Below are positions 1,767-59,002 of a stretch of 64,000 bases of DNA, one piece after another. Both the position numbers and the translations under genes were made by a program. Position 1 is the stretch's first letter. Every line of letters begins with the position of its first letter. Source of the stretch: Corynebacterium aquatimens (GTDB taxonomy: Bacteria > Actinomycetota > Actinomycetes > Mycobacteriales > Mycobacteriaceae); contig NZ_CP046980.1 in assembly GCF_030408395.1 (NCBI RefSeq), positions 868,001 to 932,000 of the forward strand, read 5' to 3'. The notes under the pieces were generated by a model that worked only from the letters and a program-made list of their open reading frames with translations, had not been told where the DNA came from and did not search any database.

Positions 1767-2317
1767 GGAAGCAATTGCGGGCGCTCGCCGTCGTCATCAT
1801 CGTCCTTGTTATCCCGCTCGGAATCTGGGTACTCGGCGAACGCGCCCAAAAAACGCCTCCCATCCAGGGCGATCAGCTCGGCATGGAGGCTGGCGAAAGC
1901 TTCGACGACTACACCCAGCGTGCGAAAGCAACGCATGAATTGCTTGACGACGACACCTCATTCTTCGCGTTGGTCACCTTCCGTCATCCGCTGGATACTG
2001 CCCGGGCATCGGAGGTGCTCGACCACATCAAGCGCGTGGATGCCATCGTCGTCGACGGTGTTGCGCCGATCCCCGTCGGTGAGCCGCGGGAGCGGGCGCA
2101 ACGCGCCTTGGTGTTCGATATCGCGCTTCGTCGGATTGGTGGTGGGGGAGCCGTCGATAAGCAATTGCTCGGCGTAGTGGTTCATGATTCTGGTGCGGCG
2201 CTCACATCGCTTAACGACGACCAAGTTGTCGCCGCCGTCGAAGCCCTCCCAGCGGACGCGGTGTGGGGCAATTTCGGGATTCGCACGGGTGGGGAGGAAA
2301 CCGCGGCGGGGCGATAG
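1763..2317 (+). CDS. Membrane-anchored hypothetical protein
   Basis: A 184-residue protein of unknown function. One N-terminal hydrophobic helix (about residues 7-24) follows basic residues, and the rest is a predicted extracytoplasmic soluble domain with no cysteines and no motif I recognise. The position between rluD and dnaE, with a 4-nt overlap with rluD, suggests co-transcription. The tail contains two copies, in opposite orientations, of the dispersed CGTCGWTAAGC word (2152 and 2209). Its TAG stop is part of the candidate dnaE -10 box. Confidence 0.75.
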
Positions 2318-2320
2318 ACT
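2315..2320 (+). promoter_or_regulatory. candidate -10 box of dnaE (leaderless)
   Basis: TAGACT ends 7 nt before the dnaE ATG and includes the stop codon of the preceding gene. No Shine-Dalgarno sequence lies between, so transcription would begin at or next to the start codon. Confidence 0.5.
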
Positions 2321-2327
2321 TGCCCGC

Positions 2328-6190: not shown

Positions 6191-7384
6191 ATGAGGACAA
6201 CGTATGAAAATCCGCCGGACGTGGGCGCGCCACCAACGGCTGATCCGGAATTCGGGTCGTCGTCAAGCTTCGCGGCCTACTACAACGCGATTACGAACAA
6301 CGCGCTAGACATCATCGCCACGTTCGACCGCGATCTCGCGCGCAGCGGCGCGCTGGAGGGGACGCACGCTCGCGACTTGGAGGACCTTCACGACGCGTAT
6401 TTCGGACCGACCAAATTCACAGCGAAGCAGCGCGCAGCGCGCGACAAGGCACGCGCGGGCAGATTCTCCTTGGACAGGCTCGTCGCCATTGAACGTCGGT
6501 TGCGGAAAATCACAGACGCTTCCGAGCGCTGGGAGCTCCGACTGCGACTGCTTGGCATCAGGGGCTCGCTCGCGCGCCTCAAGGCCGAAGCCAAAAAGAT
6601 CGTGCCCGCAGACGACACGCCGCCAAGCCCCGGGGTGCGGTTCACGCGCTCGCGCCACCAGATGCGCACGATGACGGTCACCGCCAACGAGCGTGATCTC
6701 GCGGACCTCGAACGTGAACTGGCCAACGCCATCGACACCACAAAGCCACGGGGCCCTCAGCTTGCCGACGCATTCCTTTCCCTCATCCGCAGTGATTCGG
6801 ATGCGGCGGGCGGGATTCATCGCGCGGTCCCGGAACCGCTCATTCTCGTGCCGCTTCACGCGCACACGCGCATCATCGACGGCGGGGGAGAGGAAGTCAC
6901 GCTCGTGCTTACCGACGGCACCCGCATCAGCGGCGCCGATTACCTCAACCAGTTCATTGCCGGCCAACTCGGCCCGTTGAAGGCGGCTTTGTTCCACCCG
7001 TCGGAAGGCGCTGTGAATCTCTACGATGCAGACCGGTTTGCCAACGACAAACAACGCACACTTCTGCGGGCCACATCTCCCATGTGCCCGGTGCCGGACT
7101 GCAGGCGCAGCGCTGACCATTGTCAGTACCACCACATCACAGCCTGGAAACACGGTGGGCACACGAACATGAACAACTTGAGCGTGTTGTGCCCGTATCA
7201 CAACCAAGTCAACGATGATGACCCTGGTTTTTCCTACCGCGGCTCAATTCATCATGATCAAGGGGACAAGGTGTGGGTGTCGCCCGGAGGGTACCCCGTG
7301 CAACATGACTTCAACGCCGAGTGGGGGGCGATGAGCCAACTGTTCGGCCCCAGGAGCTACGACGGGGGTGTGCTGCCCGGCTAG
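6191..7384 (+). CDS. DUF222/HNH endonuclease family protein ('13E12' type), copy 1
   Basis: A 397-residue protein with an N-terminal DUF222-like helical region and a C-terminal HNH nuclease domain. The HNH part (about residues 295-345) shows a Cys-x4-Cys pair (CPVPDC), the HH of QYHHITAW, GGHTNMNNL and a final CPYHN, so both zinc-binding and catalytic positions appear intact. These genes are multicopy in actinobacteria; no physiological role is firmly known, and a mobile or self-splicing-associated origin is often assumed. A purine-rich GGGGGGA precedes the ATG. A paralogue lies at 38038. Confidence 0.85.
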   Translation: MRTTYENPPDVGAPPTADPEFGSSSSFAAYYNAITNNALDIIATFDRDLARSGALEGTHARDLEDLHDAYFGPTKFTAKQRAARDKARAGRFSLDRLVAIERRLRKITDASERWELRLRLLGIRGSLARLKAEAKKIVPADDTPPSPGVRFTRSRHQMRTMTVTANERDLADLERELANAIDTTKPRGPQLADAFLSLIRSDSDAAGGIHRAVPEPLILVPLHAHTRIIDGGGEEVTLVLTDGTRISGADYLNQFIAGQLGPLKAALFHPSEGAVNLYDADRFANDKQRTLLRATSPMCPVPDCRRSADHCQYHHITAWKHGGHTNMNNLSVLCPYHNQVNDDDPGFSYRGSIHHDQGDKVWVSPGGYPVQHDFNAEWGAMSQLFGPRSYDGGVLPG

Positions 7385-7546: not shown

Positions 7547-8938
7547 ATGACATCCGCCCCGGAACACGATTCTGAACGCGAGAACGACAGCACGGCGCAC
7601 GGCGCGGCGCGCAGCGGCGCGTCGCAACCCGGCGCGGCGCCGGACACTTCTGCGCAGCACAACGCCGCGGGGAGCATCGCCCCGATCCGCGCTGCGGATA
7701 TTCAGGTCGCGCAGGCAGATATTTCGTCGATAATTGAGCCCACGCCCCTGCAGTATTGCCCGCGGCTGTCGCAGCAATACGGGGTCGAGGTGTACCTGAA
7801 ACGCGAAGACCTCCAAGACGTGCGCTCGTACAAGATCCGCGGGGCGTACTACACGATCGTCAACCTCACCGAAGAGCAGCGCAATGCGGGCGTCGTCGCC
7901 GCGAGCGCGGGCAACCATGCGCAAGGCGTGGCGTACGCGTGCCGCGCGCTGGGTATCGACGGCACCATCTACGTCCCCGCCCCCACCCCTAAACAGAAAC
8001 GCGACCGCATCAAGGTCCACGGCGGGGACCGCATCAACCTCGTGGTCACCGGCCGCAACTTCGATGAAGCGGCCGAAGCAGCGCGTGCCGACGCGGCCGA
8101 GCGCGGCGCGACCCTCGTCGAACCGTTCAACGCCCGCGACACGATCATTGGTCAAGGCACTGTCGCAGCCGAGATCATCACGCAGATCACCGGATTCGGA
8201 AAATCATTGGACACGATCATGGTTCCCGTCGGCGGCGGCGGCCTGATTTCCGGTGTGACTTCCTACCTCGCAGACATTTCGCCCCGCACGGCGGTGGTGG
8301 GGATTGAGCCGGCGGGGGCGCCGTCGTTAAGCGCTGCGATGAAAGCTGGGGGACCTGTGACCTTAGAGTCAATCGACCCCTTCGTTGATGGCGCGGCCGT
8401 GAAGCGCATTGGCGACGCGAATTACCACGTCATCGAAGAAAACCAAGGCCGCATTCACCTCATCGAAGTCGACGAAGGCGCCGTGTGCACTGAGATGCTG
8501 TCGCTGTACCAAAACGAAGGCATCATCGCCGAACCTGCCGGCGCACTGTCCGTGACCGGGTTGGCGGAGGTTAGCCACCGCCCCAACGCGACCGTTGTGT
8601 GCATCATTTCTGGCGGCAACAACGACGTCCTGCGCTACGCCGAGATCATGGAGCGATCGCTGGTCCACCGCGGACTGAAGCACTACTTCCTCGTCGATTT
8701 CACGCAGGAGCCCGGCCAGCTGAGGCGCTTTCTTAACGACGTCCTCGGCCCCGACGACGACATCGTCTTGTTCGAATACCTGAAGAAGAACAACCGCGAA
8801 ACCGGCACCGCGTTAGTCGGCGTTGAGCTTGCGCGGCCCACGGATTTGCAGCCGCTGCTCGAGCGCCTCGAAACCGCCGACTTCCAGACCCGCCGCCTCC
8901 AGCCCGGGACGCAGGAATATGAGTACATCGTGAACTAG
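7547..8938 (+). CDS. ilvA: Threonine ammonia-lyase (threonine dehydratase)
   Basis: PLP enzyme that deaminates threonine to 2-oxobutanoate, the first committed step to isoleucine. The 463-residue product has the PLP lysine in VRSYKIRGA, the phosphate loop VPVGGGGLISG and SAGNHAQGVAYA. A C-terminal ACT-like regulatory region contains HYFLVDF, PGQLRRFLNDVLGPDDDI and NRETGTALVG, as in C. glutamicum IlvA, which is inhibited by isoleucine. The N-terminus carries roughly 40 low-complexity residues (Ala/Ser/Glu rich) before the conserved part, making it longer than the C. glutamicum enzyme. A CGTCGTTAAGC word at 8322 uses a rare TTA codon. Confidence 0.95.
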   Translation: MTSAPEHDSERENDSTAHGAARSGASQPGAAPDTSAQHNAAGSIAPIRAADIQVAQADISSIIEPTPLQYCPRLSQQYGVEVYLKREDLQDVRSYKIRGAYYTIVNLTEEQRNAGVVAASAGNHAQGVAYACRALGIDGTIYVPAPTPKQKRDRIKVHGGDRINLVVTGRNFDEAAEAARADAAERGATLVEPFNARDTIIGQGTVAAEIITQITGFGKSLDTIMVPVGGGGLISGVTSYLADISPRTAVVGIEPAGAPSLSAAMKAGGPVTLESIDPFVDGAAVKRIGDANYHVIEENQGRIHLIEVDEGAVCTEMLSLYQNEGIIAEPAGALSVTGLAEVSHRPNATVVCIISGGNNDVLRYAEIMERSLVHRGLKHYFLVDFTQEPGQLRRFLNDVLGPDDDIVLFEYLKKNNRETGTALVGVELARPTDLQPLLERLETADFQTRRLQPGTQEYEYIVN

Positions 8939-9180: not shown

Positions 9181-10947
9181 TTAGCGACGGATTATCGCGA
9201 AGCCCCAGGGGTCCAACTTGGTTTCAGTGGCTCCGACTTCTGGGTTGGTGTAGGAGTAGAGAAGCTCGCCGCCCACGGGTGCGGTCACGGGTTCGTTGGA
9301 GAAGTTGGCGGCGAGGATAACCTCGTCGTAGCCCATGGTGAGCCAGCTGCCTGGGTAGCCGTCGCGGGGTTCGGGGGTGGTGCCGTGGTCGACGTGCAGC
9401 TCGCGCAAGTCGTCGCGCGCGAGGCCCAGCTGGCGGCGAAGGGTGAGCAGGACCTTGTAGGTTTCGTACATGTCAACCGCGGCGTCGTCGAAATTCCAGT
9501 CGATTTTGGCCGATTCGAAGGTGGCGGGGTCGGCGGGGTCGGGAACAGTTGACATGTTCCAGCCGTAGCGGGCGAACTCGTGGGCGCGGCCTTCGCGGGT
9601 GAGTTTGTTTAGGTTCTCGTCGTCGTGGCTGACAAAGAACGGGAACGGCGTCTGTGCGTAGGATTCTTCGCCCATGAAGATCATCGGCGTGAACGGGCTG
9701 AAGAAAATCACAGCAGCTTTCAGCGCGTGTTGCGCTGGCGTCAGGTTCATCGACGGCCTGTCACCGGCAGCGCGGTTGCCTACCTGGTCGTGCGTGGTGG
9801 TGTAGGTGATCAGTTTCCACGGCGCGATCTCGGCTAGGTTCAGAGCGCGGCCGTGGGTGCGGCCGCGGTAGTTCGACCAGTCGTGGCGGAAACGGTAGCC
9901 GTGGCGCAGGGTGTCGGCCAGGATCTCAATCGTCCCGAAGTCCTCGTAATACGCCATCGTTTCCCCGCTGACGACGGAATGGAGTGCATGGTGGACGTCG
10001 TCAAGCCATTGCGCGTCCAGCCCATAGCCGCCGCGGGAATAGTCGGCGATGATCCGCGGGTCATTCAAGTCACTTTCGGCGATGATGATCGGGTTCGGTC
10101 CGTTCTTTACCTCAATCGCATCGGCCACCAGGTTGATTTCCTCCATGATGGAGTACGCCGCCCGGTCGTCGTAGGAGTGCACGGCGTCCAGGCGCAGGCC
10201 GTCGATGTGGAACTCGTCCAGCCACTGCCGCACCGCATCCAGTACGTACGCGCGCACTTCATCGGAGGCCGCCCCGGACAGGTTCACTACGTCGCCCCAC
10301 CCCGTCGTCCCGGCGGTGGTATAAGGCCCGAACAACCCGTTGTAGTTCCCGTCCGGCCCGAAGTGGTTGAACACTACGTCCAAGAACACGCCGACGCCTT
10401 TGTGGTGCGCCGCGTCGACAAGCTTTTTCAGCCCCTCCGGCCCGCCGTAGGACTCTTGGACGGCGAACCATTCCACCCCGTCGTAGCCCCAGTTCCGGGT
10501 CCCGCCGAAGGGTTGTACAGGCATGAGCTCAATCGTCGTCACGCCAAGCTCAACGAGGTAGTCAAGCTTTTCAATGATCCCTTCAAACGTTCCAGACGGT
10601 GTGAAGGTGCCTACGTGGAGCTCGTAGATGACCTGGCCTTGAAGCTCGTAGTTCGTCCAGTGGTCATCGGTCCATTCGAACGCCGAATCGACGACCTCAG
10701 ACAGCCCGTGGATCCCGTCTGGCTGCCGCCGTGAGCGCGGGTCGGGGAAGGGGCCGTGCCATGAGGAGCCGTCGTTAAGCGAAAAGCCGTACCTTTGTCC
10801 GGCGACCTTGACCACGTCGCACGTCCACCACCCAGAGCGACCGTCTGCGCGCCTCATGTCGTGCGTCGTGCCGTCGACGACCACTCGCACGTCGTGCGCG
10901 AGCGGCGCCCACACCTCAAAAACTGCGCCTGAATCCACTGAATCCAT
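9181..10947 (-). CDS. treZ: Malto-oligosyltrehalose trehalohydrolase
   Basis: Cytosolic GH13 enzyme that releases trehalose from maltooligosyl-trehalose made by TreY. The 588-residue protein has an N-terminal beta-sandwich ending near GRSGWWTCDV and then a (beta/alpha)8 barrel: YELHVGTFTPSGTFEG, the nucleophile in GLRLDAVHS, the acid/base in IIAESDLNDPR, and TTHDQVGNRA. The start is the ATG at 10947. It diverges from the yigZ-like gene with only 24 bp between starts. TreY lies 1.4 kb away on the same strand, so the two pathway steps are clustered but not in one operon. Confidence 0.95.
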   Translation of the reverse strand: MDSVDSGAVFEVWAPLAHDVRVVVDGTTHDMRRADGRSGWWTCDVVKVAGQRYGFSLNDGSSWHGPFPDPRSRRQPDGIHGLSEVVDSAFEWTDDHWTNYELQGQVIYELHVGTFTPSGTFEGIIEKLDYLVELGVTTIELMPVQPFGGTRNWGYDGVEWFAVQESYGGPEGLKKLVDAAHHKGVGVFLDVVFNHFGPDGNYNGLFGPYTTAGTTGWGDVVNLSGAASDEVRAYVLDAVRQWLDEFHIDGLRLDAVHSYDDRAAYSIMEEINLVADAIEVKNGPNPIIIAESDLNDPRIIADYSRGGYGLDAQWLDDVHHALHSVVSGETMAYYEDFGTIEILADTLRHGYRFRHDWSNYRGRTHGRALNLAEIAPWKLITYTTTHDQVGNRAAGDRPSMNLTPAQHALKAAVIFFSPFTPMIFMGEESYAQTPFPFFVSHDDENLNKLTREGRAHEFARYGWNMSTVPDPADPATFESAKIDWNFDDAAVDMYETYKVLLTLRRQLGLARDDLRELHVDHGTTPEPRDGYPGSWLTMGYDEVILAANFSNEPVTAPVGGELLYSYTNPEVGATETKLDPWGFAIIRR

Positions 10948-10971: not shown

Positions 10972-11628
10972 ATGGAATCTTTCGAACTACCCCGCCTCGC
11001 CGCGCCGCTTGAGCGCGAGCTGACCATCAAGCGTTCGCGCTTCATCACGTGGATCGCGCGCGCCGAGAGCGAGGAGGACGCGCGCGAGGTGATCGCCGCC
11101 GCGAAGCACGCCTACCCGGACGCGCGGCACCACTGCACTGCGTTCATCATCCACGCGGAAGGCGCGATGCCGATTGAACGCTCTAGCGACGACGGCGAAC
11201 CCGCGGGTACCGCTGGGATGCCCATGCTTGACGTACTGCGGGGGTCGGGCTTGGAGCACGTCGTCGCGGTGGTCGCGCGGTATTTCGGCGGGATCAAGCT
11301 CGGCACGGGCGGGCTGGTCCACGCTTACGGGGAGTCGGTGTCGCAGGCGTTGGCAGAGGTACCGCGCGCTAAAAGGGAGCTCCTTGAGGTGGCGGAAGTC
11401 GATTTGGCTTACGCGGAGGGGCCTCGCATCGAAGCAGCTTTACGACGATCGTCTACACGCATCGTCGACACCTCCTACGGCGAATCGGTCACGTACACAC
11501 TGGGGTATGAACCCGGGACCTTGGATGCTGTGAACGCGATTGTGGCCGAATACACCGCCGGGGCCGCCGTTGCTTCGCGAACGTCGGCGGCGTGGTTTGA
11601 AGACGGGGAGCGGGTGGGAGGCCTGTGA
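10972..11628 (+). CDS. YigZ/IMPACT-family protein (UPF0029)
   Basis: A 218-residue protein of the YigZ/IMPACT family. The N-terminal fold shows KRSRFITWIARAESEEDA, DARHHCTAFII, SDDGEPAGTAGMPML and ARYFGGIKLGTGGLVHAY, all strongly conserved in the family. A short C-terminal ferredoxin-like domain follows. Biochemical function in bacteria is not established; eukaryotic IMPACT binds the translation regulator Gcn1. A TTA-CGA-CGA codon run coincides with a CGTCGTAAAGC word at 11437-11447. Confidence 0.9.
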   Translation: MESFELPRLAAPLERELTIKRSRFITWIARAESEEDAREVIAAAKHAYPDARHHCTAFIIHAEGAMPIERSSDDGEPAGTAGMPMLDVLRGSGLEHVVAVVARYFGGIKLGTGGLVHAYGESVSQALAEVPRAKRELLEVAEVDLAYAEGPRIEAALRRSSTRIVDTSYGESVTYTLGYEPGTLDAVNAIVAEYTAGAAVASRTSAAWFEDGERVGGL

Positions 11629-11663
11629 CGGTGCGGTCTTTCGTGACTAAGCGGGTGAGCGGA

Positions 11664-11669: not shown

Positions 11670-11676
11670 GGCGGGC

Positions 11677-11916: not shown

Positions 11917-12300
11917 ATGACCAACACCGAAGTGGGGTCAGGCCCCGTTCGTATCGACCAGTGGGTGTGGGCCGTGCGGCTGTACAAGACTCGTTCAGAG
12001 GCCGCGAAAGCCGTTCGCGCGGGGCACGTGAAACTCAATGGCTTATCGACGAAACCTTCGGCCCCCGTCGCCCCCGGCGACCGCGTGCGTGCCTGGAAGG
12101 ACTTCCGTGACTACGACTATGAGGTCACTGCGACGTTAAAAAAGCGCGTCGGGGCGCCAATCGCCCGGACGTGTTACATCGATCATTCCCCGGAGCTACC
12201 TCCGCGCGAGATCTGGTTTTCGATGCCACGGCGCGACCCCGGCGCCGGCCGCCCGACAAAACGCGACCGCCGCGAGCTGGATCGTCTCCGCGGCCGCTAA
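11917..12300 (+). CDS. S4-domain RNA-binding protein (Hsp15/YrfH-like)
   Basis: A 127-residue protein with an S4 fold at residues 10-70: RIDQWVWAVRLYKTRSEA, then AGHVKLNG and APGDRVRA. It resembles heat-shock protein 15, which in E. coli binds free 50S subunits carrying a nascent chain and helps recycle stalled ribosomes. The C-terminal basic tail (RPTKRDRRELDRLRGR) would favour RNA binding. A CGTCGATAAGC word on the opposite strand (12041) forces a TTA codon. The stop codon lies inside a 37-bp tandem duplication. Confidence 0.85.
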   Translation: MTNTEVGSGPVRIDQWVWAVRLYKTRSEAAKAVRAGHVKLNGLSTKPSAPVAPGDRVRAWKDFRDYDYEVTATLKKRVGAPIARTCYIDHSPELPPREIWFSMPRRDPGAGRPTKRDRRELDRLRGR

Positions 12301-12395: not shown

Positions 12396-15035
12396 TTAGA
12401 TGCCAGCGCGGGAAGTTTCCAAGTGTTGGCTGACGAGGAGGGCGGTGGGGAGGACGTCGAGAAGCGATGCGACCTCTACCGTGCCCGAGAAGGTGCGGCC
12501 GGTGAGGCGGTCAGTCCAATCGCCCTCGGGGAGTGTGACGGTGGTGTCGCCCCAGCCGCCGCGGTCCTCGAGCATGAGGGGGCGGCGGACGCAGAGCGCG
12601 ATGACGGACAGCCCGGCGTCGCCGCGGGTGTCGGCGTCGCCGCGCGCTATGCCCACCAGGTGAGACTCCGCCTCGCCGACACCAAACACGGCCTGGTAAT
12701 TGCCGCCGATGAAGATGTCGGGGTACTGCCTGCGTAACGTGGCGGCTTCGTGGACCACAGCCTGCTTGACCGTGTCAGCCATCGACACGAGGTGCGGGTA
12801 GGTGGCGTGCGCGGCGGCGGTGGCTGCGGCAGCGGGGTCGGCCGCGGGGGCGGTGTTGGCGGCGTTGGCTGCGGCGGCGGGGTCGGCCGCGGCTGCGGTG
12901 GCTGGGTCGGCTGCGGCGACGGTGGCAGTGCCGGCGGCGGCGTCGCGCGCGGCGACGAGCACCTCGTACTGGCGGCCCTCCGCGGCCTGCTCTTTGTACT
13001 GCTCGAGAGCCTGTGACCGGTGCATGTAATCCACGAATCGGCGGTTGTCCGGGTCCACGAGAGATAGATCGATGAACTCTTGGCCTTGGTAGGTGTCGGC
13101 GATTCCCGGTCCGACCAGTTGTAGCAGCTTGCGGCCCATGGAAATTTGTACGGCGCCGCGGTGCATGTGTGCTACGAAGTCGGAGATCATCGATTGCGCG
13201 GGCCCGTCGAGCACGGCGTCGATCCAGTCCACCACGGCGTCTTCGAAGCTCGAGTCCGGGTCAAACCAGGACGTGTGCAGGCCCGCCTCACGCGTGGCCT
13301 TGACCGCGTACGCGTGGAGGCGTTCGCGGAGCGCGTCAGTGATCTCCCCGTCGGCGGGCCACACGCCAATGATGTTCTGGAACAAGAAGTGGGCGGTCGC
13401 CTGGTCGGGGGCGGGTACGAGGGCGGAGACCTGCCGCACGAGTTCGCTGAAGGTCTTTGGCCATTCGGTCAGCTCGATGATGCGGGCGCGGGTGTCTTCG
13501 CTGCGTTTCGTGTCGTGTGTGGTCAGCGCCGTCATCGCCTGCGGCCACAGGGTGCAACGCTCCTGCTGCAGCAGGTGGAACTCCGCGGCCGAGACCCCGA
13601 AACGGCCCGGCGCGCCGCCGACTTCCTGCAGCGCCACCAAACGGCACGCGCGGTAAAACAGCGTGTCTTCCACACCCTTCGCCATCACGGCACCGCAGAC
13701 TTGCGCGAAGCGCGTCTTAGCCTCGCCGTTCGCCAATAGCGCTGCGGAAATCAGGTCGAGCGCTGCGCGTCTCGACGGAAACCTTCTCACCATATCCGCC
13801 ACCACCGTGGACGTTGTACGGGACAGCGAAATGTAGTCCGCGCGGTAGACCGGCATCGCCGCGACGAGTTCAATCACCGTGGCGGTGAGGTCTTCGTCGG
13901 AGACGGTGGAACCTGCCGTCGAGAAGTTATCGCGGCGAATGGCGCGGGTGAGCCTGCGGATTTCCGCGGCGAGCTCGGAGCGGGCGACGTCGGCTTTGAG
14001 CTGGTGTTCCGCTGCCTCGATGGCGTGCTCATCCCATGTGGAACCCGACTGCTGGAGTGACAGCATGCTCATGGAGTCTTCTGCCTCGCGGGAGACGAAC
14101 ACCCCGTCGAGCTCGCGCATCGCGTCGTAGCCCGTCGTGCCGTCGACCGCCAAGCGCGGATCCAGTGGCTCGGTGACGCCGAGGATCTTTTCCGCGACTA
14201 GCCAGCGATCCGGCCCGATCAGATCGCGCAGGCGGTTCAAGTATCCGAACGGATCGGCCAAACCATCGGGGTGGTCCACACGCACGCCGTCGATAAGATC
14301 TTCGGCGATGAGCTGGCGCAGCACGCGGTGCGTGTGCTCAAAGACCAGCGGATCCTCCTGCCGGATGCCCGCCAGTCCATTTACGGAGAAGAACCGGCGG
14401 TAGGAAATTACCCCGTCGCGCCAGTACATGAGGCGGTAGTGCTGGCGGGAGTAGACCTCCAGGGGGTCGTCGTCAAGCGAGGCGAAGCTTCCTGGCGCCA
14501 GCGGAAAATAATGCTCGTAGTACGCCAGCACAGGCTCATCGATTTCGTCGAGGTGAATGAGGCGAAACGCCTCCTCGTCGCCCTCCTTGCCCAAAACGGG
14601 GAGGCCGAGTTTGCCGTCGGCGCCGTTGTCGGAGTGCCAGTCGATGTCGAAGTAGGACTCGTACTCGCTGCCCTGGCCGTTTTTGAGCACGTCCCACCAC
14701 CACTTGTTCAGCTGCGGTGTTTCTACGCCCAGGTGGTTGGGCACGATGTCGATGATGAGCCCCAGCCCCGCCTCGTGCGCGGCGGCCGCGAGTTCGCGCA
14801 GGCCCTCGATGCCCCCGATTTCCTCGTTGACAAGCGTGGGGTCCGTGACGTCATAGTTGTGGTTGGAATCCGGGTAAGACGTGAAGATGGGGGACAGGTA
14901 AAGGTGCGACATGCCCAGCGACTTCAGGTACGGCACCAGCGCGGCCGCATCCGTAAAACCAAACCCCCGGCCGGACGGGTCCGCCCCCGGCCCGCGAAGC
15001 TGGAGGCGGTAGGTGGAGGTAATCGGGCGGTGCAT
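12396..15035 (-). CDS. treY: Malto-oligosyltrehalose synthase
   Basis: GH13 enzyme that isomerises the reducing-end alpha-1,4 bond of maltodextrins to alpha,alpha-1,1, making the TreZ substrate. The 879-residue protein begins ITSTYRLQL, then LYLSPIFTS, GLIIDIVPNHLG, the nucleophile region DGVRVDHPDGLADP and LTTHDTKRSEDTRARI. About residues 690-745 form an Ala/Asp/Thr-rich low-complexity insertion (DNA about 12795-12960, GC-rich near-repeats) in an otherwise conserved C-terminal region, explaining the excess length. The start ATG has a good GAGGAG 5 nt upstream. A hypothetical gene lies 49 nt upstream on the same strand. Confidence 0.94.
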   Translation of the reverse strand: MHRPITSTYRLQLRGPGADPSGRGFGFTDAAALVPYLKSLGMSHLYLSPIFTSYPDSNHNYDVTDPTLVNEEIGGIEGLRELAAAAHEAGLGLIIDIVPNHLGVETPQLNKWWWDVLKNGQGSEYESYFDIDWHSDNGADGKLGLPVLGKEGDEEAFRLIHLDEIDEPVLAYYEHYFPLAPGSFASLDDDPLEVYSRQHYRLMYWRDGVISYRRFFSVNGLAGIRQEDPLVFEHTHRVLRQLIAEDLIDGVRVDHPDGLADPFGYLNRLRDLIGPDRWLVAEKILGVTEPLDPRLAVDGTTGYDAMRELDGVFVSREAEDSMSMLSLQQSGSTWDEHAIEAAEHQLKADVARSELAAEIRRLTRAIRRDNFSTAGSTVSDEDLTATVIELVAAMPVYRADYISLSRTTSTVVADMVRRFPSRRAALDLISAALLANGEAKTRFAQVCGAVMAKGVEDTLFYRACRLVALQEVGGAPGRFGVSAAEFHLLQQERCTLWPQAMTALTTHDTKRSEDTRARIIELTEWPKTFSELVRQVSALVPAPDQATAHFLFQNIIGVWPADGEITDALRERLHAYAVKATREAGLHTSWFDPDSSFEDAVVDWIDAVLDGPAQSMISDFVAHMHRGAVQISMGRKLLQLVGPGIADTYQGQEFIDLSLVDPDNRRFVDYMHRSQALEQYKEQAAEGRQYEVLVAARDAAAGTATVAAADPATAAAADPAAAANAANTAPAADPAAAATAAAHATYPHLVSMADTVKQAVVHEAATLRRQYPDIFIGGNYQAVFGVGEAESHLVGIARGDADTRGDAGLSVIALCVRRPLMLEDRGGWGDTTVTLPEGDWTDRLTGRTFSGTVEVASLLDVLPTALLVSQHLETSRAGI

Positions 15036-15084: not shown

Positions 15085-15738
15085 TCAGGCCGGCACACGC
15101 GCGAGCGCAACCGTGAGCGGGAAACCGTACGAATACTCCAGCGGGTCCGTCGGGCAGTTCAGCGGAGCGATTTCCAGCGGGTGGGCGTCGAACACGAAGA
15201 GCTCGCAGTAGTCGCGAGTTACGTAGAACAGCTCCTTTTTCGGCTCCAGCACGGTAGTGAAGTGGTTGTGCAGCAACTGGAACGTCTTCGGGTGCGCCAT
15301 CCACGATGCCGCGGGCCCCTGCGGTGCTCTCACCTCGAAGCCGCGCGGACTCTCCGGCCCGAACTCGAAGGAGGCGTTGCGCACCATGAACTCCGCCACC
15401 GACGCGGTCTTTTGGGTTTGCAGCAGATTCACGGCCGCGTGGTTCCACAGGTGGTGCGTGCTCAATCCGGTCCGCCCGACCTCTTGGTGGTTCAGGATCG
15501 AGCCGTCGCGCCGCCCGATCACGCTCACGAGGTCACGCGAGAGGCTAATGAACGCCACATCCGCCGTGTACGGCACCCCGTTTCGTCCGCCCGCATGCTT
15601 GACGACGGCCTCCCTCCTCGCCATCACCGGCACCACCGCGGCCAGTTCCTCATCGCGTGACAGGCGCCTCGTGCGCTCCGTGCGTCCCGTCAGTTCCCCC
15701 GTGGCCAGATTTTCTGGCTGCGCTACGACTGGTTTCAT
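15085..15738 (-). CDS. Hypothetical protein upstream of treY
   Basis: A 217-residue soluble protein of unknown function with no signal peptide or membrane helix. It has an Arg/Glu-rich N-terminus, a central segment with several His (THHLWNHAAVN), and a hydrophobic beta-rich C-terminal half (KELFYVTRDYCELFVFD). A GGGGAA ribosome site precedes the ATG at 15738. The 49-nt distance suggests co-transcription with treY, but nothing in the sequence ties it to trehalose. Confidence 0.7.
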   Translation of the reverse strand: MKPVVAQPENLATGELTGRTERTRRLSRDEELAAVVPVMARREAVVKHAGGRNGVPYTADVAFISLSRDLVSVIGRRDGSILNHQEVGRTGLSTHHLWNHAAVNLLQTQKTASVAEFMVRNASFEFGPESPRGFEVRAPQGPAASWMAHPKTFQLLHNHFTTVLEPKKELFYVTRDYCELFVFDAHPLEIAPLNCPTDPLEYSYGFPLTVALARVPA

Positions 15739-41375: not shown

Positions 41376-41419
41376 GCTCTCGCTTAACGACGGAAGGTCC
41401 CCGCGGCTGACGCAGCGAG

Positions 41420-45431: not shown

Positions 45432-45827
45432 ATGCCGATTATTCAGTTTGACGTGCTTGTTTCTGACGATGCCGCGGGGAGGCAGGTCGAGGAGGCGTTC
45501 GCCCGGGCGGTAGGAATTCTCGTCGAGAAGCAAATGCTTATCGACGGCCGGGTCACCCGCGATTCTTCCCCCACCGTTGAGGCGGACGTGGTGGCGCAGC
45601 TGCGCGAGGTGTATGAGCGCGACCGTGGCGAAGATCCGGATAACGCGCGGGTCCACCGCTATCTGATTGAGGCCGATGGGGCGAGTTCCTACAACCAGCT
45701 GGCGATGGGGCTGTCGCGGATTTTGACGCCGAAGGCCGAATTGCCGAACGATCCCGTGCAGCTTGAGCGGCAGGAGACGTTTGAGCAGCCGTCGATCTTT
45801 CCGTGGACCGTGGAGATTATCCGCTAA
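45432..45827 (+). CDS. Conserved small protein of unknown function
   Basis: A 131-residue acidic soluble protein with no cysteine and no signal or membrane segment. Mixed alpha/beta, ending in PSIFPWTVEIIR. No family assigned. It carries a reversed CGTCGATAAGC word at 45536. Confidence 0.7.
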   Translation: MPIIQFDVLVSDDAAGRQVEEAFARAVGILVEKQMLIDGRVTRDSSPTVEADVVAQLREVYERDRGEDPDNARVHRYLIEADGASSYNQLAMGLSRILTPKAELPNDPVQLERQETFEQPSIFPWTVEIIR

Positions 45828-45921: not shown

Positions 45922-47124
45922 CTAAGGGCGCTGGAGATAGTCGAGAGCGACCTGGGCGCCGGCGTCGACGAGTTTTTCGCGGACCTGTTCGTTGAAGTCG
46001 GGGGCGTTGGGATCGGGGGCGTCGCCGAGTTCTACGGTGAGGACGTCGGGGTCGAGCTTCGCATCGATCGCGCCCGCGATGACCGCAGCGGCGGTGCCGG
46101 CGTCCTTGGCCAGGTCGAGCACGGTGGAGACCACCTTGCCCCCGGCGGATTGATCGTCGTAGTTGCCCTCGCCCGTGATGACGAGGTGGGCGTCGGCGAT
46201 TTTCTCGGGCAGTCCTTGGGCCTGGGCTACCGTCTTGGACCCGGAGACAACGGTGACGTGGTCGGCCGTGCCGTGCAGAAGAGTGGAAATCCAGGTCAGG
46301 CCAATTGAGATTCCGCCGGCAGCGCCGTAGCCGGGTTGGTCGGGGTCGACGCCGGTGACCTCGCACAGGCGCGCCAGGGCGCGGTCTGCCAGCTCGACCT
46401 CGTCCTCACTAGCGCCCTTTTGGGGGCCGAACACGCGGGCGGCGCCGCGCTCACCGGTGGCGGGGAACGCGGAATCTGCCAGGAGAATCCAGTCCACGGA
46501 CGCCGCTGGAATGTTCATCTTGGCAGTGTCGAAGTCTGCAAGATCCACGAGTGCGCCGCCGCCGTGGCGCAGCGCGTGGCCGTCTTTATCTAAAGCGTTG
46601 ATCCCCAACGCGGCCAGGATCCCTGTGCCGCCGTCGATCGTCGCGGAACCGCCCAGTCCGAGAACAATGGTGCGGGCACCGCGGCTCACCGCGTCGGCGA
46701 CGAGCACCCCCGTGCCATATGTGTCACCGGTCAGCGGCACCGGGTTGTCCTTCACCGCGGGCAAGCCCGAGGCGGCCGCGACGTCAATGTACGCGCGTGC
46801 CTCGGTAGCGTTGAACACGTACGTGGCCTCGGTAAGACGCCCGGCGGCGTCGGTGGTCGGAAGGGTGATCTCCTCTCCGTCGAAAAGCGAAGCCGTGCCC
46901 TCACCTCCATCCGCCATGGGAACGCAATCAATTTTGGCGTCACGAATGACGGATTGAACGCCCTCGCTTATCCATTCAGACGATTTATATGCAGGCGCCG
47001 TTCCTTTGAAAGAATCGGGCGCAACGACGATCTTCAGTGATGACGCATTTCCCCCGTTAAAATCCTCTGACCAGCTGTCAAAGGACTCGTCGAGTGCGGC
47101 GTCGAGGTGATGTGAATGGCTCAT
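45922..47124 (-). CDS. Glycerate kinase (GlxK/GarK family)
   Basis: Phosphorylates glycerate to 2- or 3-phosphoglycerate, feeding lower glycolysis. The 400-residue protein shows VVAPDSFKGTAPAYKSSEWI, MADGGEGTASLF, GLGGSATIDGGTGILAALG, ADSAFPATGERGAARVFGPQKGA and TGEGNYDDQSAGGKV. ATG 47124 is used because an in-frame upstream extension would run into the AT-rich spacer. It diverges from gdhA. Confidence 0.9.
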   Translation of the reverse strand: MSHSHHLDAALDESFDSWSEDFNGGNASSLKIVVAPDSFKGTAPAYKSSEWISEGVQSVIRDAKIDCVPMADGGEGTASLFDGEEITLPTTDAAGRLTEATYVFNATEARAYIDVAAASGLPAVKDNPVPLTGDTYGTGVLVADAVSRGARTIVLGLGGSATIDGGTGILAALGINALDKDGHALRHGGGALVDLADFDTAKMNIPAASVDWILLADSAFPATGERGAARVFGPQKGASEDEVELADRALARLCEVTGVDPDQPGYGAAGGISIGLTWISTLLHGTADHVTVVSGSKTVAQAQGLPEKIADAHLVITGEGNYDDQSAGGKVVSTVLDLAKDAGTAAAVIAGAIDAKLDPDVLTVELGDAPDPNAPDFNEQVREKLVDAGAQVALDYLQRP

Positions 47125-48862: not shown

Positions 48863-49699
48863 ATGTACCGCGTTTTTGAGTCCCTCGATGAGATCGTGCA
48901 AATTGTCGAGCAGGCCTACGGCATGCCGATGACCGCTAACTGCCTGGTTCCCCGCAATGACGTGCTCGCGCTTCTCGACGATCTGCGCAACGCGTTGCCA
49001 GAAGAACTCGATGATGCACAAGACGTCCTGGACAAGCAGGACGAAATCCTCCGCGGTGCCGAAGAACGCGCCGACGCCGTTATCCAGGAAGCTGACGACC
49101 AAGCGCAGCGTCTGGTAACCGAGGCGCACAACGAATCGGAATCCATGCTCAACGACGCTCAGCAGCGCGCAGTCGTGATGGTCTCCAAGGCGGAAGAAGA
49201 GGCCGATAACCTGGTTCGCTCCGCGCGCGAGGAGGCCGACGACACCGTCACGCGCGCACGCAAGGAATCCGACCGCCTCATTGCGGAAGGCAACGAGTCC
49301 TACGACCGCAGCGTCGCCGAAGGCCTTGAGGAGCAGCAGCGCCTGATCAGCGAGGCCGAGGTCACTCGCCGCGCCGATGAGGAAGCTCACCGCATCGTCG
49401 AATCCGCCCACGCGGAATCCAACCGCCTGCGCACGGAGTGCGATGACTACGTGGACAGCAAGCTCGCCAACTTTGAAGAAACCCTCACGTCCGTTCTCCG
49501 GACCGTGTCTTCGGACCGTTCCGCTCTACGGCACGGTGCTGGCGTGTCCGGCCGTGAATCCTGGACCGACACCCGCGGCAGCGATCGCGCAGACCGCGCA
49601 GAGCGCACCGACCGCGGCGAGCGCACCGACCGCACCGACCGTGACAGCTTCACGCGCTACAACCGCGGGGACAACCGCCCCCGCCGCTCGCGCTCCTAA
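48863..49699 (+). CDS. sepIVA: SepIVA-like DivIVA-domain septation protein
   Basis: A 278-residue coiled-coil protein. The start MYRVFESLDEIVQIVEQA and MTANCLVPRNDVLALLDDL closely follow mycobacterial SepIVA (Rv2927c), which works in cell division and polar growth. Residues ~55-215 are a long Glu/Ala/Arg coiled coil, including the conserved segments CDRLIxxGNxSYD (here SDRLIAEGNESYD) and SAHAESNRLRTECDDYVD. The C-terminal ~40 residues are Arg/Asp repeats (DRADRAERTDRGERTDR) not found in the mycobacterial protein. Same position before DUF177-rnc as in Mycobacterium. Confidence 0.9.
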   Translation: MYRVFESLDEIVQIVEQAYGMPMTANCLVPRNDVLALLDDLRNALPEELDDAQDVLDKQDEILRGAEERADAVIQEADDQAQRLVTEAHNESESMLNDAQQRAVVMVSKAEEEADNLVRSAREEADDTVTRARKESDRLIAEGNESYDRSVAEGLEEQQRLISEAEVTRRADEEAHRIVESAHAESNRLRTECDDYVDSKLANFEETLTSVLRTVSSDRSALRHGAGVSGRESWTDTRGSDRADRAERTDRGERTDRTDRDSFTRYNRGDNRPRRSRS

Positions 49700-50303: not shown

Positions 50304-51073
50304 TGGGCCGCAGCAAAAACAAGAATAAAATCCCAGGTGAGCAGGTCTGGGAAGAAGCATTTGAAGCCATCGACCATGCTCCGTTGCTGGAGAGGCTGGG
50401 GGTGGTCGTCGATAAGCAATGGCTCAAACTTGCATTGACCCACCGCTCTTTCGCAAACGAGCACGGCCACCTGCCTAACAACGAGCGCCTGGAGTTCGTC
50501 GGCGATGCCGTGCTGGGATTGTCCGTGGCAGGCAGGTTGTACGACGACCACCCGTCGCGGCCCGAGTCCGACATTTCGAAGATGCGCGCTTCGATCGTGT
50601 CGCGTTACGGGCTTGCGGAAGTCGCGCATGAGATACACCTGGGCGACTACATCTTGCTGGGCAAGGGTGAAACGGCCACCGGCGGGCGCGAAAAAGACTC
50701 GATTCTCGCGGACACGATGGAGGCGGTCTTCGGCGCGATCTACATGCAGTACGGCTTTGAACCCACGCGCGACGTGATTTTGAACCTCTTCGCTGACAAG
50801 CTCGCGGTGGTTACCGCGACGGGACTCCACAGCGACTGGAAGACCGCGCTGCAAGAACGCCTCGCGGAGTTGAAGGCACCAACCGCTGTCTACAGCGCGA
50901 CAGCGGAAGGCGTTGACCACGACCCGACGTTTACCGCCAGCGTCACCGTCGGCGAGGTTCAGCTCGGCCAGGGCATCGCCTCGAACAAGAAGAAGGCGGA
51001 GCAAATGGCCGCGCTGGAAGCAGTCAAGCTCCTGCACGACAACCCCGGCGTGGTCGCTCGCATCGATGCCTGA
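50303..51073 (+). CDS. rnc: Ribonuclease III
   Basis: Cuts double-stranded RNA, mainly rRNA precursors and regulatory duplexes. The 256-residue protein has an RNase III domain with the signature NERLEFVGDAVLGL and the second acidic site LADTMEAVFGAIY, and a C-terminal dsRNA-binding domain ending SNKKKAEQMAALEAVKLL. A CGTCGATAAGC word (50407) encodes Val-Asp-Lys. The end overlaps mutM by 8 nt. Confidence 0.96.
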   Translation: MGRSKNKNKIPGEQVWEEAFEAIDHAPLLERLGVVVDKQWLKLALTHRSFANEHGHLPNNERLEFVGDAVLGLSVAGRLYDDHPSRPESDISKMRASIVSRYGLAEVAHEIHLGDYILLGKGETATGGREKDSILADTMEAVFGAIYMQYGFEPTRDVILNLFADKLAVVTATGLHSDWKTALQERLAELKAPTAVYSATAEGVDHDPTFTASVTVGEVQLGQGIASNKKKAEQMAALEAVKLLHDNPGVVARIDA

Positions 51074-52028
51074 ACTCCCCGAAGTCGAGGTCGTCCGCCG
51101 CGGCCTTGACAGCCACGTCACCGGCGCAACGTTCACCCGCGTCGAAGCCCTCCACCCGCGCGCCGTCCGCGGCAACGACGTCGACCTCGCCGACGTCCTT
51201 CCCGGCCGCACCATCACCGGCACCGGGAGGCGCGGGAAGTTCCTGTGGCTTTTGCTTAACGACGAAGGGTTGGAGCGCTCTTACGAGCGCCCCAACGAGA
51301 GCCAAGACGAGCGCCCCAACGAGGGCCAAGACGAGCGCCCCAACGAGAACCGGGCCGGGCACGGCCTGCTCGTGCACCTTCGGATGAGCGGGCAGATGCT
51401 CGTTGGCCCAATCGGGGGAGTAACGGGCCTGCACGTGCGCATCCGTGCGGAGATGATCAGTAGTACAGGCGAACCCTTTGAGCTTGTGTTTGTGGATCAA
51501 CGCACGTTCGGCTCATGGCAGTACGTACCGCTCATTGCGGAGGAGGGTCAGCTGGTTCCGGCGACGATCGGGCACATCGCCCCCGACCCGTTTGAGAGTA
51601 CTTTTGACCCCGTTGCCACGGCGCGAGCGATCCGCACGAAGAATTCCGCTATCAAGACGGTGTTGCTCAACCAAGGGGTGGTCAGCGGCATCGGCTCGAT
51701 TTACGCGGATGAGGCCCTGTGGGCCGCCGGCATCAAACCAACCCGCAAAGCACGCACGTTGCGGCAGCGTGATGCCGTGCTGCTCTTAAGCGAATCCCGC
51801 GACGTGATGGCGCGCGCCCTTGAGCAAGGCGGGACCAGTTTTGATTCGCTGTACGTCAACGTCAATGGGGCGAGTGGATATTTTTCGCGTTCATTGAACG
51901 CCTATGGCCAGGCGGGAAAACCCTGCGCACGGTGCGGAACAGCGATTGCGCGGACGGTGGTCAACGGGCGTTCGAGCTACTACTGCCCGGTATGCCAGGC
52001 GGGATCGGTGTCACAGCAGCGACGCTAA
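51066..52028 (+). CDS. mutM: Formamidopyrimidine-DNA glycosylase with a repeat insertion
   Basis: Base-excision repair enzyme removing 8-oxoguanine and cleaving the abasic site. The 320-residue protein begins with the catalytic MPELPEVEVVRRGL and ends with a zinc finger (CARCGTAIARTVVNGRSSYYCPVC). Between RRGKFLWLLL and HLRMSGQML, where the family has a short loop, there is a ~25-residue insert made of DERPNEGQ-like repeats (51285-51350), explaining the excess over the usual ~270-290 residues. Confidence 0.93.
   Translation: MPELPEVEVVRRGLDSHVTGATFTRVEALHPRAVRGNDVDLADVLPGRTITGTGRRGKFLWLLLNDEGLERSYERPNESQDERPNEGQDERPNENRAGHGLLVHLRMSGQMLVGPIGGVTGLHVRIRAEMISSTGEPFELVFVDQRTFGSWQYVPLIAEEGQLVPATIGHIAPDPFESTFDPVATARAIRTKNSAIKTVLLNQGVVSGIGSIYADEALWAAGIKPTRKARTLRQRDAVLLLSESRDVMARALEQGGTSFDSLYVNVNGASGYFSRSLNAYGQAGKPCARCGTAIARTVVNGRSSYYCPVCQAGSVSQQRR
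51285..51350 (+). repeat. 24-bp tandem repeat inside mutM
   Basis: Units at 51285-51308 and 51309-51332 plus a partial third. The length is a multiple of three, so the frame is kept. Confidence 0.9.
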
Positions 52029-53607: not shown

Positions 53608-53609
53608 TT

Positions 53610-54917: not shown

Positions 54918-55202
54918 ATGACACAGAAAAGATTGACTGCCCACGTCCATGGCACCGTCCAGGGCGTGGGTTTCCGTTGGTGGACCAAGTCCCAGGCGAA
55001 GCGCCTTGGTCTTTCCGGCTACGCCAAAAACTTAGACGACGGCCGCGTTGAGGTCGTGGCGGAAGGCGCCGAAGGTGACGTCGATAAGCTAGTTGCTCTA
55101 CTAAAAGAGGAACCGACGACGACCGACCGCCCCGGCGAGGTGACCCACGTTGCCACCCAGTACGGCGAACCGAAGGGCGCGCACGGCTTCGAAGAGCGGT
55201 AA
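54918..55202 (+). CDS. acyP: Acylphosphatase
   Basis: A 94-residue ferredoxin-like enzyme that hydrolyses acyl phosphates. HVHGTVQGVGFRWW contains the catalytic Arg, and SGYAKNLDDGRVEVVAEG contains the catalytic Asn; both are intact. In Mycobacterium acyP directly precedes smc; here the Fic module lies between. A CGTCGATAAGC word (55079) encodes Val-Asp-Lys. Confidence 0.95.
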   Translation: MTQKRLTAHVHGTVQGVGFRWWTKSQAKRLGLSGYAKNLDDGRVEVVAEGAEGDVDKLVALLKEEPTTTDRPGEVTHVATQYGEPKGAHGFEER

Positions 55203-56124: not shown

Positions 56125-56130
56125 TAAACT
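56125..56130 (+). promoter_or_regulatory. candidate -10 box of smc (leaderless)
   Basis: TAAACT ends 6 nt before ATG 56137. Confidence 0.45.
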
Positions 56131-56136
56131 GCTCGA

Positions 56137-59002
56137 ATGCACCTGACATCGCTGACGCTGAAAGGATTCAAGTCCTTCGCGTCTGCGACGACGATGAAGT
56201 TTGAGCGCGGCATCTGCGCGGTGGTGGGGCCGAACGGGTCGGGAAAGTCGAACGTCGTTGACGCGTTGGCGTGGGTGATGGGAGAACAAGGCGCAAAGAA
56301 TTTGCGTGGCGGGAAGATGGAAGACGTCATCTTCGCCGGTGCGGGGGAGCGCGGCAAGCTCGGGCGTGCGGAGGTCACGCTCACCTTTGACAACTCGGAT
56401 CGGCGCCTGCCCATCGAATACACCGAGGTAGCAATCACCCGCCGGATGTTCCGCGACGGTGCCAGTGAGTATGAAATCAACGGCGCCAAGGCGCGCCTCA
56501 TGGACATCCAGGAGCTTTTGTCCGACTCCGGGATTGGCCGGGAGATGCACATCATCGTCGGCCAGGGAAAGCTCGCAGAGATTTTGGAATCGCGCCCGGA
56601 GGATCGGCGCAGCTACATCGAAGAGGCCGCGGGTGTGCTCAAGCACCGGCGGCGTAAGGAAAAGGCGCAGCGCAAGCTCAGCGGAATGCAGGCGGACCTG
56701 GACCGCCTAACGGATCTCACCGAAGAACTGGGAAAGCAGCTCAAACCGCTCGCGCGCCAAGCGGAGGCAGCGCAGCGTGCGCGCAGCGTCCAAGCGGAGC
56801 TTCGCGACGCCAAGTTGAGCCTGGCCGGCCACCAGATCGTGACCTTGAGACACGCGGCACACGCCGCTAAATCGGAGGCAGCGAAACAGGCGGCCCACGC
56901 GGAAGCGGCAGAGCGCGAACTGGCCGAGGCGGTGCAACGCCAGACCGAGATTGAACTCCAGCAAGCAGAACTTGCACCGGAGGCGGAAAAGGCGCAGTCG
57001 TTGTGGTTCGAGTTTTCGTCGTTAAGCGAGCGCGTGTCCGCAACGCAACGTGTGGCGGCGGAGCGGGCGAGCCACGTCGGGGCGATCACGGCGTACGTGG
57101 GGCAGGACCCCGAGGAGCTTGAACAGCGCGCGCGGGAGGCGGACGAGCGCTACCGCAACGCGCGGGATGCAGCGGATGAGTCAGCGACACACCTCGTCCA
57201 GGTGCGGCAGCGTGCCGCGGAGCTCGCCGAGGTTGCCCGGGCCGCGGAGCAAGAGCACCTCGCGCAGGTGCGTGCGCACGCAGACCGCAGGGAAGGCATC
57301 GTGCGGCTGATTGCGCAAGAAGACAGCGTTGCCACAGCGCTGGAAGCGGCGAAAGACACCGCAGAGAAGCAAGCAGTCGCGGCTGAGGAATTGCGCCAGC
57401 GTGCAGCGCAGATGGCCAGCGAAGCCGACGAAATTGCAGAAAAGCTCGAAGGTTTTAGTGCGCAGCGTGAGCCGCTCGCCCATGACGTCGCGCGCGCTAC
57501 CGCTGAGGCCGAGACAGCGGAGCGCCGCCTCGAGGACATCCGCGGCCAACAGCGCGAACGTGAGCGCGCAGTGTTCAGTCTGACCGCGCGTATCGCAACG
57601 CTGGAGGAAACAGCGCCCGTCACGGATGCCGCAGAGATGCTTGGCGACGACTTCCGGCCGCTCGCGGGTTTTGTCACCGCCGCACCGGGCATGGATACTG
57701 CGTTGGCTGCCGCGCTGGGTCCGCATGCGGAAGGGCTCGTGGGAAAACTGCAGGGCGTGGATATCGTGGCCCAGCTGCACGAGGCGAGCCGCACGGTGCT
57801 GTTTGACTTAGGCGGGGCTACTGGGGATCGCGGCGCGGTTACGCAGTGGCGCCTTGATTCCACTCTGCCGGCAGGCACGAGTTGGCTCCTAGACCATGTG
57901 ACAGTTGTTCCGGAAATCACAGAGGCTGTGGTGCGGCTTATCGTCGACGTCGTTGTCGCGGACAGCGTGGAGCATGCGCGGGACGCCGTGCTGGCTGATC
58001 CGCGGCTGCGCGCTGTCACCCGCGAAGGGGTATTAGTCGGCGAAGGCTGGGTCGCCGCCGGCACCGGGTCCACATCCACGGTGGAAGTCGCCGCCGCAGT
58101 GGCCCGTGCGCGTGAAGAACTTGACACGGCGCAGGCAGCGCTGCGTGAGCTCGACGGCACGTTAGAAGGCGCGAAGCTTGCTGCCGATGACGCGCGCATG
58201 GCCGTCGCGGCGCGCCGGGCGGCGCTCAAAGACCATGACGCGAATGCGGAAAGCTGGCGGCGCGACCACGCGCGCTTGCGCCGGATCGCGGAGGACGCGC
58301 AGAAGGAATTTGAGAAGTCGTCGGCTGCCGCGGCCACAGCGGAGAAACGCTCCGTCGAACTCGCCGACGCGTTGGCAGAGATCCGCGATCGCCTCGCCCG
58401 CGTCGGGGACCTCGACAGCATCGATGAGGGGTTCACGCCGGACACTTCTGCCCGCGACAGTGCACAGGAGGAACTTTCCGCCGCCCGCGCCGCGGAAATG
58501 GAAGCAACTCTTGCCGCCCGCACCACGCAACAAACCGCAGAGTCACTCAGCGGGAAAGGCGATGTCTTGCGCCGTCAAGCACGCCATGAGCGTGAAGCCC
58601 GGGCGCGCCACGCCAAGGCCATGGAGAAGCGGAAGGCGCAGGCCGCGCGGGCGGTGACCGTCGAAAAGCATGCGCGTGAGCTCAGCGACCGCATTGCAAC
58701 GGCATTGGCGACAGCGACGACGCGCCGCGACGAGTTAGCCGCTCAACTCGCGGAGCTCAACACTGCGCATGCGGCGGCGCGTACGCACGTGACCACGGTG
58801 CGTGAGCAGCACACGCGCCTGCTCAGTGCCGCGAACAAGACCGCAATCGCGCGTGAGCACGCCGCAGTGCGCCTCAGCGAGGCGGAGTCGAGTGCCGCTG
58901 ACGCGTTGGGCATCGCCATCGATGACTTGCTGGCGGACCACACGCCCAGCGATGACTTCGACGTTGACGCGCAGAAAAAGCGCCTCAAGCGCGCTGAGCG
59001 CG
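56137..59002 (+). pseudogene. smc: Chromosome segregation protein SMC, 5' part (split by IS)
   Basis: SMC is the ATPase arm of the condensin that organises the chromosome. This part encodes the N-terminal head (LTLKGFKSF, Walker A GPNGSGKS at residues 31-38, and the Q-loop region), the first coiled coil, the hinge (about residues 500-640) and most of the returning coil, 955 residues in all. The frame then enters an IS element and stops at 59028 after eight or nine foreign residues. The C-terminal head with Walker B is in the separate piece at 60416-61056. Joining the two at the target duplication restores the frame exactly (1168 residues). Confidence 0.93.
58995..59002. repeat. Target-site duplication of the IS, left copy
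   Basis: TGAGCGCG, repeated at 60408-60415 directly beyond the right end of the element. Confidence 0.88.

Follow-up and report, generated by a model that had tools for sequence, protein, structure and literature searches.

A genome-wide, dialect-forming word in Corynebacterium chromosomes as a probable DNA uptake sequence

A bipartite word is repeated across the Corynebacterium aquatimens chromosome

The DNA studied here is a 64-kb stretch of the Corynebacterium aquatimens chromosome (NZ_CP046980.1, positions 868,001 to 932,000; hereafter the window), in which an 11-base word, CGTCGWTAAGC, recurs on both strands and in many genes. The window holds 22 exact copies (14 with A and 8 with T, spanning 2152-57027), 13 on the plus and 9 on the minus strand, against a mean of 0.05 and a maximum of 1 in 100 dinucleotide shuffles of the same DNA; CGTCGTAAAGC is present in 3 copies. 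The initial annotation had counted 14, 8 and 3 copies between 2152 and 57027, and these numbers matched on recount. Its claim of over-representation also holds for the whole chromosome (2,524,396 bases), which carries 640 copies, 321 forward and 319 reverse, with only 0 and 1 by strand for the reversed word used as a control.

The enrichment of the 11-base word is thus real, but this word is only the core form of a more permissive word. For CGTCGNNAAGC, i.e. CGTCG-NN-AAGC, the window has 49 copies (25 plus, 24 minus), against a mean of 1.9 and a maximum of 11 for its 27 one-letter variants; CATCGNNAAGC has 0 copies there. The whole genome contains 1,447 copies of CGTCG-NN-AAGC versus 48 for the reversed control. 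The tolerance of each letter was read from a 464-kb sample of the genome composed of the window and twenty 20-kb stretches, which is the basis of all C. aquatimens results below unless stated. When any letter of CGTCG in the exact words is altered, no variant has more than 2 copies. The two middle letters tolerate change (the first prefers A or T, the second T), and the flanks of 123 exact copies show little conservation past 1-2 bases. Because the enrichment is lost with any one-letter change in CGTCG but not with changes in the middle letters, the unit is the bipartite 5-2-4 word CGTCG-NN-AAGC, of which CGTCGWTAAGC is the core. The word is non-palindromic with a strict core and a loose spacer, as expected of a site read by a protein.

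A word search of the window located every copy. Of the two exact CGTCGWTAAGC forms, CGTCGATAAGC lies on the plus strand at 2152..2162, 17462..17472, 25279..25289, 28747..28757, 31870..31880, 38321..38331, 40910..40920, 50407..50417 and 55079..55089, and on the minus strand at 12041..12051, 22059..22069, 24571..24581, 36224..36234 and 45536..45546. CGTCGTTAAGC is found at 8322..8332, 10770..10780, 30488..30498 and 57017..57027 (plus) and at 2209..2219, 31466..31476, 41382..41392 and 51254..51264 (minus). The other CGTCGNNAAGC copies differ in their spacer. TC is the spacer at 6258..6268, 9996..10006, 14468..14478 and 41686..41696 (plus) and at 1942..1952, 15597..15607, 38307..38317 and 43620..43630 (minus), and AG at 12455..12465, 16555..16565 and 45521..45531 (plus) and at 29526..29536 and 48970..48980 (minus). 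Copies with AC stand at 10413..10423 and 36274..36284 (plus) and 36701..36711 (minus), those with TA at 21850..21860 (plus), 11437..11447 and 33881..33891 (both minus), and those with AA at 46878..46888 and 58659..58669 (both plus). The remaining copies are all on the minus strand, with spacers GC (6760..6770), GT (6907..6917), CC (16886..16896 and 57639..57649), CT (18338..18348) and CG (56799..56809). Two tight inverted pairs with 3- to 4-base gaps are formed at 38307-38331 (the copies starting at 38307 and 38321) and at 45521-45546 (those starting at 45521 and 45536).

The word has dialects within the genus

CGTCGNNAAGC and CATCGNNAAGC were counted over 242 whole Corynebacterium genomes, G000 being the source genome. 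CGTCGWTAAGC counts range from 0 to 793. With thresholds chosen by eye (CGTCG, at least 195 copies; CATCG, at least 159 copies with CGTCG at background), 170 genomes are classed as CGTCGNNAAGC, 18 as CATCGNNAAGC, 1 as ATGACNNCGCG and 6 as GGCGTCAATA, and in 47 none was found; ATGACNNCGCG was searched in 59 genomes and GGCGTCAATA in 58, the latter search omitting G170 and G178. These two genomes, with 115 and 127 copies or about four times the control, are placed among the 47. The word or its one-base dialect is therefore present in most of the 242 genomes, and the comparison with related species proposed in the initial annotation also revealed re-spelling at orthologous sites, described below. 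The CATCG spelling was revealed by assumption-free sampling of two low-count genomes, G001 and G004 (80 kb each). CGTCG and CATCG copies in samples are 244/7 for G000, 3/35 for G001 and 2/26 for G004, and these two main words are for the most part mutually exclusive. Some CGTCG-class genomes carry up to 165 CATCG copies, and G023, classed as CATCG, is mixed (352 CGTCG and 1,337 CATCG copies). As for the rarer words, which emerged from sampling of the same kind, ATGACNNCGCG reaches 684 copies in G011 versus 21 for its control (at most 101 in the other 58 genomes), and GGCGTCAATA has 140-174 copies in six genomes and at most 19 in the others, except G011 with 57.

CGTCG copies are numerous in C. 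pilosum (1,891), C. aurimucosum (1,179), C. striatum (1,135), C. minutissimum (1,131), C. silvaticum (1,122) and C. tuberculostearicum (921), with 195 in C. mastitidis, and few in C. meridianum (109), C. glyciniphilum (59), C. macginleyi (42), C. falsenii (24) and C. dentalis (20). G101, taken as C. macginleyi, has 490 CATCG copies. Outside the genus, the CGTCG word, the sole word counted, stands at 0.3-1.3 times its reversed control in 26 genomes of Rhodococcus, Gordonia, Dietzia, Mycobacterium, Nocardia and others. A helicase tree comprising 59 genomes requires at least 5 changes between the two main dialects, versus at least 10 in 500 label shuffles. The CRTCGNNAAGC dialects thus share an inner core and are distributed along the phylogeny, as is the case for the DNA uptake sequences (DUS) and uptake signal sequences (USS) considered below.

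No convincing other word was detected in 40-80 kb samples of G028, G120, G007, G010, G042, G131, G206 and G232, which are 8 of the 47 none-found genomes. In 40 kb of G131, a CRISPR-like repeat of 25-30 bases (AAATACCTCCGCGTGCGCGGAGAATTG region) recurs about 20 times. CGTCGTCAAT was considered as a genome-wide word of G053, a CGTCG-dialect genome, and rejected since it is clustered within one stretch (G053:C1:1000001-1020000), where nine copies lie in a longer GCGCG-rich context.

Words are re-spelled in place between sister clades

The helicase tree places the C. tuberculostearicum group, which uses CGTCG, and the C. macginleyi and KPL1814 group, which uses CATCG, as sister clades. Mapping of G219 to G001 covered 82.7 kb, mostly around the tad and com loci, at 80.6% identity. 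At the site of 27 of the 43 CGTCG words of G219, G001 carries a CATCG word, the only difference in the specified letters being G to A at position 2, and 22 of these 27 keep an identical two-letter spacer. The remaining 16 comprise 2 retained words, 1 with another single mismatch, 11 with 2-6 mismatches and 2 in gaps. In the reverse mapping, 27 of the 47 CATCG words of G001 are CGTCG words in G219. Five further pairings, which are not independent of G219/G001, gave 26/38, 21/33, 27/45, 27/46 and 25/39 re-spelled words. As a control, the G-to-A change was scored in CGTCG outside words, where it affects 41 of 280, versus 29 of 42 inside words (Fisher 9e-13); the same comparison in four other pairings gave Fisher values from 4e-17 to 2e-11. 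The switch may have run from CGTCG to CATCG or in the reverse direction.

Corynebacterium genomes encode a Tad pilus and ComEA/ComEC

A ComEC match was found in 241 of the 242 genomes and the Tad ATPase family TIGR03819 in 239, of which 232 score above the cut-off. All 52 tad loci inspected, chosen by their Tad ATPase, encode a CpaE-like/Ssd protein, TadA, TadB and TadC (TadB/TadC being fused in some), a Flp-like pilin, two small TadE-like pilins and a DECH helicase; in G000, proteins of the locus match TIGR03815, TIGR03819, DUF4244, TIGR03816 and TIGR03817. ComEA is present in each of the 20 com loci inspected and is encoded ahead of ComEC. The hosts of the word thus possess ComEC, ComEA and type IV filament genes, as do DUS and USS hosts. 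In another actinobacterium, Micrococcus luteus, transformation is reported to need tad genes and ComEC, and the same source describes tad together with comEA/comEC as frequent in Actinobacteria, M. luteus being without TadZ (PMC4322843). The TadB-TadC fusion, which we observed as a fused reading frame in a clade with GGCGTCAATA genomes and several word-free ones, is also reported for M. luteus tad-2 (PMC4322843).

Thirty genomes have full-length Tad ATPases with weaker scores (1e-109 to 1e-125), and none of them has either main word. We do not accept a weaker score as the cause of the words' absence, because the pattern follows clades, including GGCGTCAATA users, and because eight CGTCG genomes (G013, G074, G094, G167, G168, G189, G198 and G204) have still weaker, partial or absent matches. 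In G123, which has few words, the ComEC match (G123:C1:543012-543797) contains an internal TGA, perhaps a sign of lost competence and decaying words. Comparing the two sister clades, no fixed difference between dialects appears in the Flp pilin past its processing site. TadE2 has the most disjoint columns (25 of 107, mainly in the C-terminal half), nearly matched by ComEC, DegV and TadC (20-21%). The TadE2-like protein of G010 is very rich in His, Thr and Asn, unlike its relatives.

The word is rare in three phages and in a CRISPR-Cas region

Three C. glutamicum phages, BFK20, phi673 and P1201 (136.5 kb read), contain 2 CGTCG copies and 0 CATCG. About 49 copies would be expected in this amount of DNA at the density of G064 (1,183 CGTCG copies), which we take to be the C. 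glutamicum ATCC 13032 chromosome, and the dialect of the phage host rests on this presumed identity. In G000, a 16.6-kb word-free gap lies in C1:1875001-1895000, at a type I-E CRISPR-Cas region, 4.5 kb of it being the repeat array. That stretch contains a type I-E Cas7 gene and 75 CRISPR-like repeat copies at stretch positions 11481-15999. In this small sample, phage and acquired DNA are therefore poor in the word, another trait of DUS and USS.

Other functions or origins of the word fit less well

The initial annotation offered three kinds of known words, namely uptake signals, Chi-like words and chromosome-organising words. The word could be a chromosome-organising site bound by a nucleoid, condensin-loading or positioning protein, with dialects that follow that protein. 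Copies are indeed present in all 21 sampled stretches, at 3-21 per 20 kb, with a slightly even dispersion across 126 bins of 4 kb (0.87), and a MinD/ParA-like Tad protein partly covaries with the dialect. However, this covariation failed validation in held-out genomes, no strand pattern was seen, and the re-spelling of hundreds of sites would need selection on each of them, which a drive by uptake would not. We consider such a site improbable.

A recombination hotspot of the Chi type, serving the corynebacterial end-resection enzyme, would also be short, non-palindromic, over-represented on the chromosome and rare in phages, and Chi words differ between species. Known Chi words are nevertheless usually oriented, and here the strands are balanced in each chromosome half (82 minus/73 plus and 57 minus/58 plus, the origin being placed by assumption at the record start), so that no orientation bias of the Chi type, or of the type of FtsK-orienting polar sequences (KOPS), was detected along the replication direction. 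The little strand bias noted initially is thereby borne out, and it is because of this balance that Chi-like and chromosome-polarity words fit worse than an uptake signal. We know of no case in which most Chi sites switched by one base in place, and no use of Chi is known for actinobacterial AdnAB. A Chi-like role is accordingly very unlikely.

Could codon, dipeptide or mutational bias alone produce the word? Genes were called with a simple purpose-made caller (345 genes, 79% of the sample), which places 222 of the 270 CGTCG-NN-AAGC copies in genes, 46 between genes and 2 partially in genes. Of the 222 coding copies, 119 fall in a single reading frame (Leu-x-Asp when the opposite strand is read), as such a bias would have it. 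However, all six frames are occupied, 78 copies run along and 144 against their gene, and 100 synonymous-codon shuffles within genes yield only 18.0 ± 4.2 copies (maximum 30), a 12-fold deficit relative to the 222 observed; for the W-T form in coding sequence, 90 copies compare with 4.0 ± 1.6 (maximum 7). In addition, the intergenic proportion of copies (17%) is near the intergenic share of the sample (21%), most one-letter variants are not enriched, and the dialects are largely exclusive. Bias alone is thus refuted, with hardly any probability left to it. Most of the enrichment disappears on synonymous shuffling and every one of the six frames is used, which supports selection acting on DNA and not on protein, as the initial annotation had argued from the use of rare codons; the codon-preserving shuffle that it called for genome-wide was run here on the 464-kb sample, and the observed counts stayed far above the shuffled ones. 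If the word belonged to a dispersed mobile element or a repeat family, its many copies per genome would be explained, but this origin is equally refuted by the little conservation past about 2 flanking bases and by the position of most copies inside unrelated genes.

The word is best read as a probable DNA uptake sequence

Of the functions proposed, an uptake signal fits best because the dialects are largely exclusive, words are re-spelled in place, and the word is nearly absent from the three phages and the CRISPR-Cas region. CGTCG-NN-AAGC is a genome-wide word that probably acts as a DNA uptake sequence, with a predicted receptor tied to the Tad pilus. In natural transformation, such a receptor, linked to the Tad pilus and ComEA/ComEC, would bind the word and favour DNA of its own kind. 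Its preference would bias which DNA enters, recombination would then swap out word-poor alleles, and copies would accumulate by molecular drive. A shift of receptor specificity by one base would switch the dialect, after which the drive would re-spell existing sites. The 47 word-free genomes may be competent without specificity, non-competent, or users of another word. We infer each of these steps beyond the sequence facts. More broadly, the word is likely to be a self-DNA password that evolved independently of those of Neisseria and Haemophilus and is read in Tad-pilus-dependent transformation; it would have at least two, probably four, dialects, and genomes re-spelled in place on a change of reader would record molecular drive and a sexual barrier between sister species.

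Several observations weigh against this uptake reading. The machinery does not predict the word, because ComEC is matched in 47 and the Tad ATPase in 46 of the 47 none-found genomes; the presence of Tad and ComEC, both nearly universal, was rejected as an explanation for that of the word. ATGACNNCGCG and GGCGTCAATA, which we infer to be dialects of the main word, are without its CRTCG core. Word-poor phages and islands are also expected for other words maintained on chromosomes. In the literature searched (subscription journals and preprints lay outside its scope), no Corynebacterium uptake or transformation assay was found. Finally, the alignment columns of eight tad-locus proteins, compared over 42 + 17 genomes, include none that separates the dialects, and ComEA and ComEC of 20 genomes show no clean dialect-separating column. 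In the first set, residue 178 of the CpaE-like protein (residue 90 of the L035:8546-9556 product), Q with CGTCG and E with CATCG, was the sole column of 2,242 in the tad locus with the full pattern; one pair of sister lineages used as a control also yielded one such column, and 13 held-out CGTCG genomes have Q in 9, E in 3 and H in 1. Residue 178 was thus rejected as the sole dialect determinant, because 4 of the 13 held-out genomes lacked the expected Q, and we therefore name no receptor. Its Q/E state follows the dialect in many genomes, not all, a partial covariation. The structure model of the CpaE-like protein folds like MinD/ParA proteins and is uninformative on word reading.

Relation to known words and significance

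Uptake words are described in the sources cited from two proteobacterial families only, Neisseriaceae and Pasteurellaceae (PMC12616744; PMC5031613). The DUS of Neisseriaceae resembles the Corynebacterium word in being short and over-represented, with about a thousand copies or more, a strict core and dialects that follow phylogeny, as reported by Frye et al. 2013 (PMC3630211). The Corynebacterium word is nonetheless unrelated, bipartite with a loose 2-base spacer, and found in Actinomycetota with a Tad pilus locus. ComP is the Neisseriaceae receptor, whereas no receptor was found among the Corynebacterium tad-locus, ComEA and ComEC proteins compared. Unlike DUS, the word shows no excess of close pairs (26 of 270 gaps below 200 bp versus 27.4 expected), and frequent inverted pairs serving as terminators, a usual though non-defining trait of DUS and USS, are not seen. 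Among pairs closer than 60 bp, 8 of 11 are inverted (504-kb sample). The USS of Pasteurellaceae is likewise genome-wide, with a conserved core, a discontinuous motif and two dialects according to PMC12616744; word, phylum and pilus type differ, and the receptor predicted in that source is the minor pilin PpdA/ComN. Chi and KOPS are also over-represented, non-palindromic chromosomal words, but the Corynebacterium word is unbiased by strand in the chromosome halves.

The initial annotation had recognized no known word in this one, and the literature searched contains no description of it or of Corynebacterium uptake words; among the matches listed for its strings, no paper is on the subject by title. 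The best reading is that uptake words have a third lineage in Corynebacterium, independent of Neisseriaceae and Pasteurellaceae.

Corynebacterium has an outer mycolate layer, and the genus spans commensals, pathogens and an industrial organism. If the uptake reading is true, these would be the first Gram-positive bacteria known to have an uptake word, and a third case of independent origin would mean that passwords of this kind arise repeatedly and can function with a different type of pilus. How uptake words spread can be tested directly on the one-base switch that separates the sister clades. Uptake by C. glutamicum would be expected to favour CGTCGATAAGC fragments over CATCGATAAGC, scrambled or word-free DNA, and dialects would predict the partners of gene exchange and guide the search for natural transformation in C. 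glutamicum.

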